A DNA stretch of 5,092 bases from the NCBI GenBank assembly GCA_030916685.1, contig JAUPWD010000089.1:1-5092 (forward strand), written 5' to 3'. A program made the position numbers and the translations under genes. Under the pieces are notes generated by a model. That model saw only the letters and a program-made list of their open reading frames with translations. It did no database searches and was not told the DNA's origin. Position 1 is the stretch's first letter; every line of letters starts with the position of its first letter. Below, one piece after another: positions 1 through 5,092 of this stretch. The DNA comes from Patescibacteria group bacterium. Lineage in GTDB: Bacteria; Patescibacteria; Paceibacteria; Moranbacterales; UBA1568.

Positions 1-24
1 ACCGGAAGGACTGATCCGGCATTC

Positions 25-30
25 GAGGAG
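25..30 (+). promoter_or_regulatory. Shine-Dalgarno of the small membrane-anchored gene
   Basis: GAGGAG lies eight bases before the ATG at 39 and decides that start. It is the only clear Shine-Dalgarno placed properly before a gene in this window. The two large genes downstream lack a comparable one. Confidence 0.65.
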
Positions 31-38
31 ATTATCTC

Positions 39-467
39 ATGACAAGGAGAGAAAAGACTATTCTGTCTGTTCTTATGCTTGCGCTTGCCACGCTCATTGG
101 AATAGCCACCACCTATTTTGGTGTCAAGTTAGTCATGACTAACGCACCACCAGCCCCATCCTACCAGGAGAAAAACCTGGCGGTGCTCAAGTCCGCCCAG
201 TCGAATGATCTCGTGCTCTGCCTCGGAGAGAAGTCTAGCTCCTCACAACAAGAAGTCACATTCGCATTTTTAGTCGATATGATCAATAGCTATGTCATGA
301 CCGGCTGGAACCTCGATACGCACCACCTGTCCCGAAAGGACGGCGGATGGAATCTGCTCTTCGCTTCGAGATGGGAATGTGAGATGCGGGTGGTGAAAGA
401 GCCACTCGCTCAACAAACCATTGGCCGAATCATCATGTACGGACCCAATCCACCGCCAGCGAAGTGA
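39..467 (+). CDS. Small membrane-anchored protein of unknown function
   Basis: I do not recognise this 142-residue protein. Residues 1-6 are positively charged (Met-Thr-Arg-Arg-Glu-Lys). A hydrophobic stretch at about 8-32 follows, which reads as one membrane-spanning signal anchor. There is no lipobox cysteine, and no obvious signal-peptidase site is clear enough to argue for secretion. Next comes a Pro-rich spacer (about 36-41), then a soluble region of about 100 residues expected outside the membrane. That region holds two cysteines (about 61 and 114) that could pair, aromatic patches around Gly-Trp-Asn and Gly-Gly-Trp-Asn, and a Pro-rich C-terminus. The ATG at 39 is supported by a GAGGAG Shine-Dalgarno at 25-30, eight bases upstream. 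The gene ends with TGA. No upstream promoter is visible in the 38 bases available, so it may belong to a transcript starting outside the window. Being a real gene is likely; its role is unknown. Confidence 0.75.
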   Translation: MTRREKTILSVLMLALATLIGIATTYFGVKLVMTNAPPAPSYQEKNLAVLKSAQSNDLVLCLGEKSSSSQQEVTFAFLVDMINSYVMTGWNLDTHHLSRKDGGWNLLFASRWECEMRVVKEPLAQQTIGRIIMYGPNPPPAK

Positions 468-482
468 TCACCGCCAACGACC

Positions 483-534
483 GCCCCTAAATACCTAGCG
501 TAACATCGCGAAAGTATCCGGGGGCTGTTTTTTT
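483..534 (+). terminator. Weak possible terminator after the first gene
   Basis: A run of seven T (528-534) follows the G-rich segment 520-525, which can pair with GCCCC at 483-487. The stem is only five base pairs with a loop of about 33 bases, so this is a poor intrinsic terminator by itself. The position, 16 bases after the stop codon of the first gene, is what makes it plausible. Confidence 0.25.
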
Positions 535-545
535 ATTTCAAAAAT

Positions 546-596
546 AGCGGTCGTTCCGCTGTCTCAGCGGTGCGTCCGCTGTTTTATTTTTCTTTT
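546..596 (+). repeat. Left arm of terminal inverted repeat
   Basis: This arm consists of two 15-base palindromic units, 546-560 and 566-580, separated by GTCTC, then GTTTTA and a T-rich tail. Each unit has a five-base stem (AGCGG / CCGCT) and a five-base loop (TCGTT, then TGCGT). It matches the reverse complement of 992-1042 with about three mismatches. Confidence 0.85.
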
Positions 597-657
597 ATTT
601 TTCCTTCTCGATTTTTTTCATCCGATAGCAGCCATCGAACATTTCTCACTCGCTCTG

Positions 658-681
658 TCGATCAGGGAGCTGTCCTGTCGA
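658..681. repeat. Small bulged hairpin inside the element
   Basis: TCGA (658-661) pairs with TCGA (678-681), CAGG (663-666) with CCTG (674-677), and A668 with T673, around a GCTG loop. T662 and G667 bulge out. Nine base pairs with two bulges is modest and could be chance, but it lies within an element full of symmetry. Confidence 0.35.
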
Positions 682-803
682 AACCATCCGTCACGCTCGA
701 CTGTTACCGACTCGCTCAAGAGAAACGTTACCGCCGTCTGCTAAACGAAGCAAAATAAATGAGAAGGAAAGCGCCGCCCCTATCTTCTGACTTGGTCTTT
801 GGG

Positions 804-935
804 TCTCCGCGCGAAAAGAATCGCTAGAAATTCCAGACTCACTATGGATACAGGAGATTCTCACAGGAGGAAGTGAAACGCCACTGAGAAGCTTCCATAA
901 GGTGAGGCGGAATTTCTCGATTCGTTCGCAGGAGA
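804..935. repeat. Long imperfect hairpin of about 44 base pairs
   Basis: The two halves of this 132-base segment fold on each other. Helices from outside in: 804-808/931-935, 811-815/925-929, 818-823/918-923, 826-834/909-917 (nine perfect pairs), 838-842/902-906, 843-848/894-899, and 855-863/885-893 (eight of nine). The bulges are small, except six bases at 849-854. The apical loop is 864-884. Either strand could form it. It could be a structured RNA, the folded core of a mobile element, or the trace of an inverted duplication. I did not match it to any known RNA family, and it lacks recognisable integron attC core sites. Confidence 0.6.
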
Positions 936-949
936 GAGTTTCTTTGGTT

Positions 950-977
950 TACTTTTCTTTGCGGACAAAGAAAAGTA
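950..977. repeat. Perfect 12-bp hairpin with CGGA loop
   Basis: Positions 950-961 are the exact reverse complement of 966-977, around the four-base loop CGGA. It sits between the long hairpin (804-935) and the right repeat arm. It is not followed by a T run on the plus strand, so it does not look like a plus-strand terminator. It is probably part of the same repeated element. Confidence 0.7.
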
Positions 978-991
978 TGAAGAAAGTTTTA

Positions 992-1042
992 AGAAGAAAA
1001 TTAAAACAGCGGACGCACCGCTGAGGCAGCGGAACGACCGCT
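992..1042 (-). repeat. Right arm of terminal inverted repeat
   Basis: This is the inverted partner of 546-596. It holds palindromic units at 1008-1022 and 1028-1042 separated by GAGGC, preceded by an A-rich segment. The units keep the AGCGG / CCGCT stems with loops ACGCA and AACGA, which are the complements of the left-arm loops, so sequence beyond the small stems is conserved between arms. Confidence 0.85.
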
Positions 1043-1050
1043 CCTAAACA

Positions 1051-1082
1051 AAAAACACTCTGATTTTTATTGGAGTATTTTT
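1051..1082. terminator. Weak A-rich/T-rich hairpin, possible bidirectional terminator
   Basis: The segment 1051-1063 pairs imperfectly with 1070-1082. Five A (1051-1055) face five T (1078-1082), with a short core of ACTC/GAGT plus two wobble pairs around a six-base loop. The symmetric A-run, stem, T-run layout resembles a bidirectional terminator that would separate the inverted-repeat element from the GH130 genes. The stem is weak, so this is only a suggestion. Confidence 0.25.
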
Positions 1083-1108
1083 CCTAAAAAAAGAAAGAAG
1101 AGTATACT
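1080..1108 (+). promoter_or_regulatory. Possible promoter of the GH130 gene pair
   Basis: TATACT at 1103-1108 is a good -10 hexamer (five of six to TATAAT). The sequence 17 bases upstream (TTTCCT, 1080-1085) is a poor -35, and no TGn extension precedes the -10. Initiation near 1115 would give a leader of about 22 bases before the ATG at 1137 and would place the alternative GTG at 1113 at or before the transcript start. Confidence 0.3.
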
Positions 1109-1136
1109 GAGGGTGGAGCGAAGACAAAAAAAGAAT

Positions 1137-3047
1137 ATGACTGTTCAAAAATCATTTCCAAGGGGGTATGAGGTTTTTTCGGAGGGGAAAACCATTGCCC
1201 TGTTTACGGCGCCATTCGAAACGGAGAAGAAGAGTCTCTCGGTCATCGAGAGCCGATCGGGACTTCATTTCAAGATGAATCCAGGTCGTTTCGTCGTGAC
1301 CAAGGCATTCGGCATTCGTGAAGATATATCGGACGTTCTCGATATGTCGATCACCGGACTTCCTGGAAGTGATGGATATTTCCTCACCTATACGAAGAAG
1401 CGCGGCGGCAAAGTATATCTCTATGGAGCGAAGTCGAATGACGCTCTCTCCTGGAAGAAAACGGGTCTCATCGAAGGCATCCATAGTTTCGGTGCGCTCG
1501 TACCGGAGTATTCTTTCGAGGATCATTCCATACTGTATTATTCTGCGAATGGCCGATCGATCAAGATGGCGCTGACATCGGATCGGGAGCATTTTTCCGT
1601 GTTTTCACAATCGGTTCTGGAACCACGGAAATCAAGCTTTGATTACGGATCGCTTCAGATGGGGCGGGCTTTTTTGACGACGGAAGGAATTGCTTTGTTT
1701 TATCTCGCGAAGAATATCCGTGGGAGATTGTGTGTGGGCGCGGCACTCTTTGATCAGACGGCTCCGGCCAAACTCCTCTGGCGGTCGAGTCATGCACTCT
1801 GGGAGCAGCCGGAACACTGGAAGACCGCAGACATCCGTCTCGTCGGTATCGTTTCGACCAAGGATGGCTTTCTCGGATATTTTCAGGAAGGGGAGTATCG
1901 GATTTTCGCCGAGCCACTCCGCTATGTCGCCAAGACAAAGCCGAAGTTTTTGAAAAAGGCGCCGGTGAAGAAAGTCGCGAAAAAACCAAAGAAAGAGCCG
2001 ATTGAAAATAAATTGACGCTTGTTCGTCATGTAAGCAATCCGATCCTCGCTCCACGCACGGAGAATCAGTGGGAGTCGCTCGCGACTTTCAATCCGGCAG
2101 CGCTTCATATCGACGGTGTGGTGCACCTCCTCTATCGGGCACAGGGACACGACGGACTTTCGGTGCTCGGATATGCAGCGAGCTTCGATGGAATTTGCAT
2201 TCATCATCGCGAACCGGGACCGGTCTTCATTCCGTCGCGGAGTTTCGATACGCGTCACAAGATGGCGAGCAAGCATCCGTACCCGTATGTATCCGGTGGT
2301 GGATATGGCGGTTGCGAGGATCCGCGCATCGTACAGATCGGCGAGACCATCTATCTCATTTACGTTGCTTTCGACGGGGTAAATCCGCCGGGAGTAGCAT
2401 TGTCGTCCATCGCGAAGGAGGATTTCCTCGCGAAGCATTGGCATTGGACGCCGCCGAAACTCATTTCGAAGCCGGGAGAAATTCAGAAGAACTGGGTGAT
2501 CTTTCCGGAGAAAATTCATGGGAAATTTGCGGTGCTCCATGGTATCAGTCCGGATATTAAGATTGAATACGTCGACAGTCTCGATGACCTCGGTGATGGA
2601 AAGTATATCGAGAGCTTGAAATCTCATGGTGGTGGCGGATATGCACAGACGGATCGCCGGAATCAGTGGGACAATATCGTTCGTGGAGTGGGTGCTCCGC
2701 CGCTTCGGACGAAGAAGGGGTGGCTCGTGTTCTATCATGCGATGGATCACCGTGATCCGGGTCGCTACAAGGTGGGCGTGATGCTCCTTGACCTCAAACA
2801 TCCGGAGAAGATTATGCGCCGATCGGATCAGCCGATCCTTGAGCCGGAAATGAGCTATGAGAACAATGGATTGAAGCGCGGTGTGGTATATGTCTGCGGC
2901 GCGGTCATCAAGGACGATACTTTGCTCGTGTATTACGGCGCATCGGATCACACGGTCGCAGTCGCCGCGGCGCCGATCGATGATTTCCTGAATCGCCTCA
3001 TGACGCATCAGCTGGTACAATTGAAGGCCGTAACCATTGGTAAGTAA
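1137..3047 (+). CDS. Double-domain GH130 protein: degenerate GH130-like domain plus intact GH130 domain
   Basis: This 636-residue protein is probably a cytoplasmic beta-mannoside phosphorylase or mannosidase; no signal peptide is seen. Residues about 293-625 form a GH130 five-bladed propeller domain: Phe-Asn-Pro-Ala-Ala (318-322), Tyr-Arg-Ala-x-Gly-His-Asp (333-339), Gly-Cys-Glu-Asp-Pro-Arg (392-397), Phe-Pro-Glu-Lys-Ile (456-460), Gly-Ala-Pro-Pro (519-522), Gly-Trp-Leu-Val-Phe-Tyr-His (528-534) and Tyr-Tyr-Gly-Ala-x-Asp (599-604). Asp395 in the EDPR motif matches the general acid reported for family members, by my recollection. Residues about 10-262 align with the same fold but lack EDPR and the Tyr-His motif; 187-206 match the late 'GAALFD' blade. 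A linker rich in lysine (266-292, 12 Lys) joins the halves. I prefer the ATG at 1137; an in-frame GTG at 1113 would add eight residues. Neither has a clear Shine-Dalgarno. The next gene, with the same architecture, starts 17 bases after the stop. GH130 membership is firm; substrate and subfamily are not. Confidence 0.9.
   Translation: MTVQKSFPRGYEVFSEGKTIALFTAPFETEKKSLSVIESRSGLHFKMNPGRFVVTKAFGIREDISDVLDMSITGLPGSDGYFLTYTKKRGGKVYLYGAKSNDALSWKKTGLIEGIHSFGALVPEYSFEDHSILYYSANGRSIKMALTSDREHFSVFSQSVLEPRKSSFDYGSLQMGRAFLTTEGIALFYLAKNIRGRLCVGAALFDQTAPAKLLWRSSHALWEQPEHWKTADIRLVGIVSTKDGFLGYFQEGEYRIFAEPLRYVAKTKPKFLKKAPVKKVAKKPKKEPIENKLTLVRHVSNPILAPRTENQWESLATFNPAALHIDGVVHLLYRAQGHDGLSVLGYAASFDGICIHHREPGPVFIPSRSFDTRHKMASKHPYPYVSGGGYGGCEDPRIVQIGETIYLIYVAFDGVNPPGVALSSIAKEDFLAKHWHWTPPKLISKPGEIQKNWVIFPEKIHGKFAVLHGISPDIKIEYVDSLDDLGDGKYIESLKSHGGGGYAQTDRRNQWDNIVRGVGAPPLRTKKGWLVFYHAMDHRDPGRYKVGVMLLDLKHPEKIMRRSDQPILEPEMSYENNGLKRGVVYVCGAVIKDDTLLVYYGASDHTVAVAAAPIDDFLNRLMTHQLVQLKAVTIGK
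1926..2012 (+). other. Region encoding the lysine-rich interdomain linker
   Basis: About 29 codons between the degenerate and intact GH130 domains encode a segment with 12 lysines in 27 residues plus several prolines and alanines. This resembles a flexible basic linker. It may simply separate the propellers or bind an anionic partner. The second gene joins its two domains without such a linker. Confidence 0.7.
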
Positions 3048-3064
3048 TATTTATTTCTTTTTCT

Positions 3065-3457
3065 ATGCTCGATGTCATCCGATCTCCTCATAATCCACTC
3101 CTCCGTCCGAATTGGGAGAATGCTTTCGAAGCGGCAGCGACGTTCAATGGTTGCCCGGTAAAGACCGGCACCGGGAAGGCTGTGACCATGGTCTATCGTG
3201 CTCTTTCCGAACCACAGTTCTATGAAGGTGTGGAGATCATGCTTTCCGTCGTGGGGAAAGCCGAGAGTAAGGATGGTGTTTCATTAGCGAAGACCGCCCC
3301 ATTTATCGTTCCGGAAGAGAGTTGGGAGCGCTATGGATGCGAGGATCCCCGCGTGACGAAGATCGGGGATACCTATTATATTTTTTATACCGCACTCTCG
3401 ACATTTCCCTTCGGTCCGGATGGAATCACGGTGGACTCGCGACTACTACGGATCTGA
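3065..3457 (+). CDS. Upstream fragment of the broken GH130 gene
   Basis: As written, this frame yields 130 residues. The first 123 are the N-terminal part of a GH130 domain, including Phe-Asn-Gly (27-29), Val-Tyr-Arg-Ala (43-46) and Gly-Cys-Glu-Asp-Pro-Arg (91-96). The last seven are out-of-frame sequence read after the shift, before TGA at 3455-3457. It covers about two of five propeller blades and would not fold as a full enzyme by itself. If the frameshift is a sequence error, this entry merges with the next. Confidence 0.5.
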   Translation: MLDVIRSPHNPLLRPNWENAFEAAATFNGCPVKTGTGKAVTMVYRALSEPQFYEGVEIMLSVVGKAESKDGVSLAKTAPFIVPEESWERYGCEDPRVTKIGDTYYIFYTALSTFPFGPDGITVDSRLLRI

Positions 3458-4983
3458 AGAAGATTGATGCCAAGCATCATGTGACGCATTTCAATTCCAA
3501 AGCGATGACGCTTTTCCCGAAGAAAATAGGAGGGAAATTCGCCGCGCTTCTTTCAGTGAATACGGATCGTCCGCCGGCGACCATCGCATTGGCATTTTTC
3601 GAGAAGGAAAGTGATATGTGGTCGGAGGAATATTGGCGAAATTGGTATGATGGGCTCTCCGATCACGCTATCGATCTCTCGAAGCGATCAGGGGATCATG
3701 TAGAAATTGGCGCGCCACCGCTCGAAACATCGAAAGGCTGGCTCCTCATTTACTCCCATATCTATCATTACGGAACTGCACAACAGGTATTCGGTATCGA
3801 AGCAGTACTCCTCGACAAGAAAGATCCGAAGAAAATTCTCGGACGGACCGCGACACCGCTCATCATGCCGCAGGAGAATTATGAACTCTATGGCATGGTG
3901 GATAACATCACGTTTCCATCAGGAGCTTATATCGAGGGGGATGATCTGCATATTTATTATGGCGCGGCCGATACGACGGTTTGTCGTGCGACCACTCCAC
4001 TCGCGCGATTGCTTGAGGATATGCTCCAGCCGGAAGGGGAGATCGTCTTCGATCGTGCGAAGGAGAATCCGATTCTCACGCCGGTAGCGGAGCATGCCTG
4101 GGAGGATAAGGCAGTTTTCAATCCGGCAGCCTTTCTCGAGGATGGCAAGATTCATCTCGTGTATCGAGCCATGGGTCATGAGGATACGTCCGTGATGGGG
4201 TATGCCGTGCTCTCGGATATCGCGACCATCGAAGAGCGACTCCCGGAACCGATTTATGTGCCACGGGAAATTTTCGAACAGAAACTGAATCCAGGAAATT
4301 CCGGATGTGAAGATGCACGCATCACGCGAATCGATAATACGTACTACATGTGTTATACCGCTTTCGATGCGGTGAATCCTCCTCGTGTGGCAATGACGAC
4401 CATATCGGTGAATGCTTTCAAGGAACGACGATTCGACGAGTGGACGACTCCCGTGCTCATCTCTTCACCGGGGACGGATGATAAGGATGCCGCGATCTTT
4501 CCGGAAAAGATTAATGGGCATTATGTGTTTCTCCATCGTTTCCAGCCGAATATCGATCTTTGTTATGTGGAGCACTTGGTCGCGCTCGATGGGAAGAATT
4601 TCCTTCCGCGCAATCCGATCATGCGGCCGCGTCCCGGCATGTGGGATGATCTGAAGATTGGTATCTCCTCGACTCCGCTCAAGACGAAGAAAGGCTGGCT
4701 CCTCCTCTACCATGGTGTCTCTTCGGAGGATCATCGCTATCGTGTGGGTGCGGCACTCCTTGACCTGAAAGATCCGGAGAAGGTCATCGGACGAACCGAT
4801 GCACCGCTCTTCACCCCGGAAATGCCCTATGAGCTCGAGGGAATCGTCCCAAATGTTGTTTTCCCATGTGGATCCGTCATCATCGGAAGCAAGCTCGTCA
4901 TCTATTATGGAGGGGCAGATACGGTCATCGGCGTGGCGACCATCTCCCTCGCCAAGCTCTTGACCCATATTTTGAAGGATTAA
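3433..4983 (+). CDS. Downstream fragment of the broken GH130 gene
   Basis: This gives 516 residues of GH130 sequence in the shifted frame: the last three-fifths of domain 1 and all of domain 2. The frame is open upstream to a TTG at 3322, but the residues before 3433 are a shadow of the other frame and do not match the family. If translated independently, the first in-frame ATG after the shift is at 3505 (Met148 of the joined protein) and has no obvious Shine-Dalgarno. Domain 2 is complete, so the fragment could in principle still give an active single GH130 domain. The gene ends with TAA. Confidence 0.55.
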   Translation, partial: GLATTTDLKKIDAKHHVTHFNSKAMTLFPKKIGGKFAALLSVNTDRPPATIALAFFEKESDMWSEEYWRNWYDGLSDHAIDLSKRSGDHVEIGAPPLETSKGWLLIYSHIYHYGTAQQVFGIEAVLLDKKDPKKILGRTATPLIMPQENYELYGMVDNITFPSGAYIEGDDLHIYYGAADTTVCRATTPLARLLEDMLQPEGEIVFDRAKENPILTPVAEHAWEDKAVFNPAAFLEDGKIHLVYRAMGHEDTSVMGYAVLSDIATIEERLPEPIYVPREIFEQKLNPGNSGCEDARITRIDNTYYMCYTAFDAVNPPRVAMTTISVNAFKERRFDEWTTPVLISSPGTDDKDAAIFPEKINGHYVFLHRFQPNIDLCYVEHLVALDGKNFLPRNPIMRPRPGMWDDLKIGISSTPLKTKKGWLLLYHGVSSEDHRYRVGAALLDLKDPEKVIGRTDAPLFTPEMPYELEGIVPNVVFPCGSVIIGSKLVIYYGGADTVIGVATISLAKLLTHILKD

Positions 4984-4993
4984 TATTGTGGGG

Positions 4994-5022
4994 TTGACAC
5001 CTTTAAAATAGCTTGGTAGTAT
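4994..5022 (+). promoter_or_regulatory. Sigma70-type promoter with extended -10, reading out of the window
   Basis: A perfect -35 hexamer TTGACA (4994-4999) is separated by 17 bases from TAGTAT (5017-5022), a four-of-six -10. A TG at 5014-5015, one base before the hexamer, forms an extended -10. Initiation is expected near 5029. It begins only 11 bases after the stop codon of the GH130 gene and must serve something beyond 5092. It is the best promoter in the window. Confidence 0.6.
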
Positions 5023-5092
5023 GTTTCTGATGCTTCACGGCAATCTTTTTTCATTCGTGGAAAAAGTGGCTCTGAATAGCTTAGAAAAAATA
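5023..5092 (+). other. Untranslated leader or start of an RNA downstream of the promoter
   Basis: No start codon with a ribosome binding site is seen in these 70 bases. TTCACG (5034-5039) can pair with CGTGGA (5056-5061), including one wobble pair, around a T-rich 16-base loop. The octamer AATAGCTT occurs at 5007-5014, inside the promoter spacer, and again at 5075-5082. The segment is most simply the 5' leader of a gene that begins outside the window. Confidence 0.3.

Follow-up and report, generated by a model that had tools for sequence, protein, structure and literature searches.

The GH130 enzymes described in the passages of PMC4599007, PMC4264767, PMC8950772 and PMC10619541 covered here are single-domain only. 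The solved GH130 chains are likewise single domains of 303–390 amino acids (aa), in agreement with an earlier sequence-only reading of the present locus, which took the characterised enzymes to be mostly single-domain proteins of about 300–400 residues. The locus analysed here lies on a stretch of 5,092 nucleotides (nt) from a Patescibacteria group bacterium, apparently a tiny uncultured one (GenBank assembly GCA_030916685.1, contig JAUPWD010000089.1, positions 1 to 5,092 of the forward strand; "the window" below denotes this whole stretch). It carries two adjacent genes, G1 and G2, each encoding two GH130-type propellers. The four propellers in a row over two genes that the sequence-only reading had proposed were thus confirmed, with 636 aa in G1 and 639 aa in P0121, an intact database copy of G2.

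The closest solved folds are the beta-1,2 enzymes 9fj8/9gph and 7fip, which share their catalytic residues, specificity lysine and inferred phosphate residues with the second domain of G2 (G2C). They are single domains, whereas three to four domains in two chains are found here, two of them with altered phosphate sites; as in that system, mannose-phosphate genes lie nearby in part of the tandem loci. Teth514_1788/1789 of Thermoanaerobacter are also an adjacent gene pair (PMC4264767), and the GH130 group that contains Uhgb_MS, listed as a mixed-linkage synthase (PMC8950772), shares the motifs and fold of G2C in a single domain. The beta-1,2-mannosidases BT3780 and BACOVA_03624 have the same fold, catalytic Asp and Lys in a single domain, and have lost the basic phosphate residues, as have the first domain of G2 (G2N) and the second of G1 (G1C). 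In BT3780, the likely catalytic acid is Asp142, which is invariant across GH130; Asn74, Arg89 and Asp363 contact sugars, and Lys199 marks beta-1,2 specificity; GH130 phosphorylases hold phosphate by three basic residues, where hydrolases have Glu227/Glu268 instead (PMC4599007).

Against this background, we propose that G1 and G2 work together as a cytoplasmic phosphorylase system for beta-1,2-mannan (oligomannan), one that occurs mainly in Patescibacteria, and put the probability of this interpretation at roughly 65%. As best read from the residue patterns, the system would comprise one canonical active site (G2C), two rebuilt ones (G2N and G1C) and one scaffold, the first domain of G1 (G1N). 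The GH130 fold, and probably the chemistry of one domain, are known; the domain combination, the conserved pairing and the two altered active-site patterns are new.

Domains and active sites

Three of the four domains (G1C, both pieces of G2N, and G2C) score above the Pfam cut-off of 26 bits for the GH130 family PF04041. No Pfam family was found for positions 1137–2012, which cover G1N, and the PF04041 cut-off was not reached there. G1N nevertheless has remote GH130 homology in an NCBIfam match (1.7e-6) and in a sequence search of the PDB, which returned the GH130 mannoside synthase 9erh (8.5e-7); its best sequence match is Uhgb_MS. Profile comparison with hhalign aligned G1N to the other three domains at E values from 2.5e-12 to 1.9e-20, with one profile pair each. 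Outside G1N, the predicted folds have the five-bladed beta-propeller of GH130. The AlphaFold model of G1 has a mean local confidence (pLDDT) of 81.4 and a predicted template modelling score (pTM) of 0.54, and no signal peptide is obvious in G1 by eye.

The reading frame of G2 is broken near position 3,430. The two pieces are identical to P0121 at 122/123 and 515/516 residues, and the break is therefore taken as a local defect of the record. Given a break this local and many database relatives, an artefact was ruled out. G2 residues are numbered after P0121.

Active-site residues were compared in an alignment of 83 G2C, 82 G2N and 73 G1C domains with 7fip and 9fj8. The sugar contacts, the catalytic Glu-Asp and the Lys are retained in nearly all copies of the three domains. 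Both the equivalent of Asp142 and that of Lys199, the mark of beta-1,2-mannan-active enzymes, are invariant (83/83 G2C, 82/82 G2N and 73/73 G1C), while the catalytic motif of G1N is unrecognisable. The three basic phosphate positions were located by their spacing to Glu227/Glu268 of BT3780 and by conservation in the solved beta-1,2 enzymes, and the ligands named here are putative to that extent. G2C carries all three (Arg492, Lys531 and His550; Table 1) and is the only domain in the window to retain every tested beta-1,2-mannoside phosphorylase residue. G2N has lost all three, with Arg replaced by Thr/Ser, Lys by His/Gln and His mostly by Ser.

In the window, the predicted phosphate site of G1C is switched: Trp453, Gly469, Val515 and Arg516 replace the usual pattern, His534 is retained and the set of three basic residues is incomplete. 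Across the 73 copies this four-column switch is all-or-none, with two states and no intermediates. The window belongs to the first state (Trp / not Arg / not Lys / Arg), found in 50/73; the remaining 23 have the second (not Trp / Arg / Lys / not Arg), eight of them with His at the His550 position too. In switched copies, the two Glu227/Glu268-type positions are small or mostly aliphatic residues, not acids as in BT3780. A linkage of the switch to loss or gain of G1N was ruled out, both states occurring with and without it. As a separate observation, the third basic position shows an unexplained trade-off, with Gln in 10/23 and Tyr in 5/23 copies of the Arg/Lys state and His in 49/50 of the switched state.

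In an unrooted tree of the domains with two reference chains, G2N forms a single clade (83/83, support 0.989) and G1C forms another (73 copies plus an L030 domain mis-typed by the profiles, support 1.0), indicating that each split off before the sampled host lineages diverged. The same test did not recover G2C as a separate clade.

These patterns suggest how the system may work. G2C would phosphorolyse beta-1,2-mannan, with Asp417 driving a proton relay and Arg492, Lys531 and His550 holding the phosphate, which would attack the terminal mannose and release alpha-mannose-1-phosphate (Man-1-P), one mannose per turn; in reverse, G2C would add mannose to the chain from alpha-Man-1-P. The predicted substrate follows the Lys signature and the nearest solved enzymes, and either direction of flux would be compatible with this scheme. 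With complete sugar sites, a catalytic Asp and rebuilt nucleophile sites, G2N and G1C would grip the same beta-1,2-mannan and most likely perform a different, non-canonical step, be it hydrolysis, a transfer that uses another donor, or the binding of chain ends to feed G2C. G1N would be an optional scaffold. Two meanings floated by the sequence-only reading find some room in this scheme: a catalytic domain paired with a sugar-sensing one would suit the degenerate N-terminal half of G1 (as sensor or scaffold), and consecutive steps on one chain would suit three catalytic-looking domains with differing phosphate sites.

Table 1. Features of the window, with G2 residues numbered after P0121.
Feature	Position	Strand	Remarks
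142-aa open reading frame upstream of the pair, function unknown	39–467		
G1, two-propeller GH130 protein, 636 aa	1137–3047	+	
G1N, degenerate propeller, G1 residues 1–262	1137–1922	+	catalytic motifs unrecognisable
Flexible linker of G1, residues 263–298	1923–2030	+	pLDDT <50 at 263–291 and 295–298
G1C, GH130 domain	2013–2996	+	catalytic Asp395, with Lys451 and Asp604
Glu394-Asp395, catalytic pair of G1C	2316–2321	+	role after PMC4599007
Val515-Arg516 of G1C	2679–2684	+	Lys/Arg then Ile/Val in phosphorylases; part of the switch
G2, two-propeller GH130 protein	3065–4983	+	frame broken near 3,430
G2N, GH130 domain	3065–4029	+	catalytic and sugar-binding residues retained, putative phosphate ligands gone
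Glu93-Asp94, catalytic pair of G2N	3341–3346	+	82/82 G2N
Asp168 of G2N, invariant acid beside the lost Arg	3565–3567	+	82/82 G2N
Glu214 of G2N, G2N-specific acid beside the lost Lys	3703–3705	+	80/82 G2N
Glu246 of G2N, G2N-specific acid	3799–3801	+	71/82 G2N
G2C, predicted canonical beta-1,2-mannoside phosphorylase domain	4030–4980	+	
Glu416-Asp417, catalytic pair of G2C	4309–4314	+	83/83 G2C
Lys474 of G2C, lysine of beta-1,2 specificity	4483–4485	+	role after PMC4599007
Arg492 of G2C, putative phosphate ligand	4537–4539	+	82/83 G2C
Lys531 of G2C, putative phosphate ligand	4654–4656	+	Lys/Arg in 82/83 G2C
His550 of G2C, putative phosphate ligand	4711–4713	+	82/83 G2C

Distribution of the gene pair

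Protein searches returned at least 2739 relatives of G1 among 7997 scored and at least 7923 of 8000 for the second piece of G2. The best 120 matches for each were typed with our own domain profiles. For G1, 117 are G1N+G1C and three (P0011, P0013 and P0024) are fusions with the order G1C-G2N-G2C, P0011 also having a remnant of G1N; for the G2 piece, 119 read G2N+G2C and in the remaining one G2N is split. The fusions point to complex formation between the two proteins; they also suggest a working assembly made up of the three core domains, to which G1N would have been added. The sequence-only reading had taken the architecture to be unusual. Two-domain proteins of this length are in fact common as sequences, although searches of the open-licence PMC literature, as far as its available text goes, found no description of a tandem-domain GH130 enzyme.

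A genome scan with a two-domain G2 alignment gave at least 585 matching stretches, of which 504 were confirmed and the best 80 kept as loci. Their record titles name Patescibacteria or the Candidate Phyla Radiation (CPR) group in 48 cases and only "bacterium" or "uncultured bacterium" in 18. The other 14 comprise seven Chloroflexi/Dehalococcoidia, two Omnitrophota, two Nanoarchaeota and one each of Bacteroidetes, Rickettsiales and Babeliales; some of these may be misbinned. All 80 loci have a two-domain G2, as expected since the query was itself two-domain and the best matches were retained. Independent of that choice is the presence of G1 directly upstream of G2 in 75 of the 80; this retention, together with the three fusions that join the parts, makes the pairing meaningful. 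The gap between the genes ranges from -172 to 966 nt (median 4 nt, 75 loci), the widest, at L042 and L066, containing an additional GH130 gene. For the five loci without G1, the upstream DNA is shorter than 160 bp in three, 913 bp at L040 and 4.3 kb at L061, so that only L061 lacks G1 despite ample upstream sequence. G1N is present in 36 of the 74 typed G1 copies, the window included, and absent from 38, some of which begin at contig ends. The survey of 80 loci and the typing of the best 120 matches rule out a rare fusion peculiar to one organism.

In a sample of 286 genomes from the phylum, 16 have a full-length G2 (E <1e-200), and all 16 have a second GH130 gene upstream within about 1.5 kb. 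One of the 286 (G002) was the centre of the sample, picked for having G2; among the other 285, the unit is conserved yet patchy, occurring in about 5%.

Several loci carry variations on the pair. A 293-aa single-domain GH130 protein sits between G1 and G2 at L042:9968-10849, stand-alone extra G2N-like domains adjoin the pair at L079:11936-12928 and L066:1309-2265, and at L070:3227-6640 G2 continues into about 460 further C-terminal residues whose function is unknown.

Neighbouring genes and a possible pathway

Two clusters of neighbouring genes offer a possible link to central metabolism: a mannose-6-phosphate isomerase-type cupin (21 loci, with a doubtful member, in a 2,688-aa open reading frame (ORF), at L001) and a HAD protein of the phosphohexomutase type (13 loci). 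One or both lie near the pair in 28 of the 80 loci, and both in six; every member is within two genes of it, as against 249 of 947 neighbour ORFs. This placement fits a reversible route from mannan through Man-1-P and mannose-6-phosphate to fructose-6-phosphate, in which the HAD phosphohexomutase and cupin isomerase, where present, would link the sugar phosphates. A Pfam scan covered 85 of 111 upstream and 61 of 119 downstream listed ORFs (100–900 aa); those excluded by hand were mostly on the opposite strand, with some same-strand ones at positions ±2. MannoseP_isomer was matched by 12/85 upstream and 4/61 downstream neighbours and the phosphomannomutase model PMM by 5/85 and 6/61, and all eight HADs scanned passed the PMM cut-off. 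For one of them, at L068, the alpha-phosphoglucomutase 4bnd (4.7e-34) ranks above the phosphomannomutases. Of the ten tandem genomes that encode a relative of the HAD mutase, eight have it no more than about 1.5 kb away from the pair or from its cupin. The 25 commonest families of neighbours at the tandem loci include no genes of GDP-mannose synthesis.

Several observations weigh against the proposed system. The adjacency is statistically marked (p = 3e-13 for the cupin and 2e-8 for the HAD), but these values ignore kinship among the loci. Neither enzyme is nearby in 52 of the 80 loci, though many contigs are short, and the window itself has none, the only gene upstream of the pair being the 142-aa ORF. 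In four of the eight HADs (L022, L036, L049 and L068), the phosphomannomutase model scores lower than the one for HAD hydrolases in general. The match of the cupin to a bifunctional NCBIfam model is confined to the isomerase part and far below the cut-off. The HAD mutase has a relative in just 10 of 31 tandem genomes and occurs in 39 of 270 sampled genomes without full-length G2. Solved GH130 enzymes being single-domain, G2C may also not need the other domains. Strong co-inheritance of the pathway enzymes was considered and set aside as only moderate: the HAD mutase is found in 6/16 genomes with full-length G2 against 39/270 without (p = 0.025) and strong PF01050 matches in 5/16 against 21/270 (p = 0.009, with the cut for a strong match set after viewing the list), while all PF01050 matches amount to 9/16 against 84/270.

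Other features stand apart from this argument. At L033:12196-13503 and L077:3385-4608, a nucleotidyltransferase-like domain is fused to the domain that resembles the HAD phosphohexomutase. In one genome that lacks full-length G2 (G272:C11:18513-20189), the cupin and HAD mutase are adjacent, and the two can therefore travel without the GH130 pair. In the window, the 142-aa ORF has a hydrophobic N-terminal stretch by eye and no match in Pfam, NCBIfam or PHROG. Upstream of G1 are a 49-nt inverted repeat (546–594 and 994–1042, 96% complementary, 399 nt apart) and a 16-nt near-direct repeat (476–491 and 1033–1048), which look like a small non-coding insertion resembling a miniature inverted-repeat transposable element. 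The 33-nt core of the inverted repeat has no exact match in the 80 loci. No Rfam family was found, a plasmid search limited to near-identity gave no match, and G1 matched no viral contig.

Alternative roles and biological meaning

The altered domains admit of several roles. It is rather unlikely that G2C is the sole active domain, with G1N, G1C and G2N all serving as non-catalytic modules for binding or oligomerisation. The absence of recognisable motifs in G1N, and of the putative phosphate ligands in G1C and G2N of the window, would agree with such modules, as would the P0121 model, which places the two domains together confidently (pTM 0.80); yet nearly every G1C and G2N conserves the catalytic Asp and the Lys along with the Asn and Arg contacts, and this, together with the coupled four-residue switch of G1C, should exceed the needs of binding. 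Also unlikely, and a little more so, is that G2N is a true inverting beta-1,2-mannosidase with Glu214, perhaps Glu246 or Asp168, as its base, making G2 a hydrolase-phosphorylase fusion. In GH130, hydrolysis is associated with acids that replace the phosphate-binding bases (PMC4599007), and G2N has lost the basic positions while carrying Glu214 where 82/83 G2C, and most G1C too, have Gly (the alignment to 9fj8 agrees on Glu214) and Glu246 where Gly is found in 69/83 G2C and 73/73 G1C. These two acids are specific to G2N but lie near, and outside, the columns of the lost Arg and Lys, and are at most candidate counterparts of Glu227/Glu268 of BT3780; hydrolysis would also waste the energy gain of a phosphorylase. 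Asp168 was rejected as a G2N-specific acid, since its column, which adjoins a gap and is uncertainly aligned, is also Asp in 7fip, 9fj8 and 24/83 G2C, and our estimate for the hydrolase was lowered slightly for that reason. Distinctly improbable is a glycosyltransferase-like G2N (or G1C) that uses a nucleotide sugar to initiate or lengthen the chain, like some GT108 enzymes of Leishmania, beside a phosphorolytic G2C. The propeller fold of the Leishmania enzymes MTP/MPT (GT108) resembles that of G2N, but other propellers score equally on it (5mt2 25.2, 6n1b 25.1, the GH159 protein 7zei 24.1, GH43 22–23), which reduced our estimate for this role; no GT108 chain matches the tandem domains by sequence at E 0.001, and no nucleotide-binding feature was identified.

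A different question is where the mannan would come from. The pair could conceivably serve salvage, degrading short beta-1,2-mannosides from a host or the environment and not a store of the cell's own, as proposed for Teth514_1788/1789, a pair with the same adjacent-gene logic and a division by chain length (PMC4264767). We consider this possible but less than even. At least one sugar-type ABC binding protein (SBP_bac_1) occurs somewhere in the genome in 23 of the 31 tandem genomes; the other eight have no match. ABC transporter genes are rare beside the pair, ABC_tran being found in only 3 of the 61 scanned downstream neighbours, and the members of an ABC ATPase cluster (11 loci) are scattered over many positions. 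A CPR genome with two GH130 enzymes without signal peptides is described as having neither phosphotransferase system (PTS) nor ABC sugar importers, as far as the available part of PMC7143001 goes.

The phosphorylase system could instead turn over an internal reserve. In Leishmania, mannogen is such a reserve, a beta-1,2-mannan turned over by MTP/MPT (PMC8950772). A bacterial counterpart is a tentative and, on balance, doubtful proposal: many Patescibacteria would keep an intracellular beta-1,2-mannan built and broken down by a conserved multi-propeller complex, with G2C phosphorolysing and G2N and switched G1C contributing new chemistry (chain initiation, transfer or trimming). Were this true, a single fold would carry out the entire storage cycle in cells that lack glycogen phosphorylase. 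None of the 16 sampled tandem genomes has a glycogen phosphorylase match. A replacement of glycogen was nonetheless rejected, the lack of overlap between PF00343 (40/286) and full-length G2 (16/286) being not significant (p = 0.08).

Patescibacteria make up a large share of the diversity of bacteria, and little is known of how they manage carbon and energy. A conserved pair with readable active-site patterns provides a direct, expressible test of which polymer they use. If G2N or G1C has a non-phosphorolytic activity, this would be a natural case of one fold with different nucleophile sites in one chain, and useful for making beta-mannosides. The all-or-none switch of four residues in G1C poses an evolutionary question that is testable by mutation. 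For the organisms themselves, the pair probably makes or breaks an unusual mannose polymer, which is possibly an energy store.

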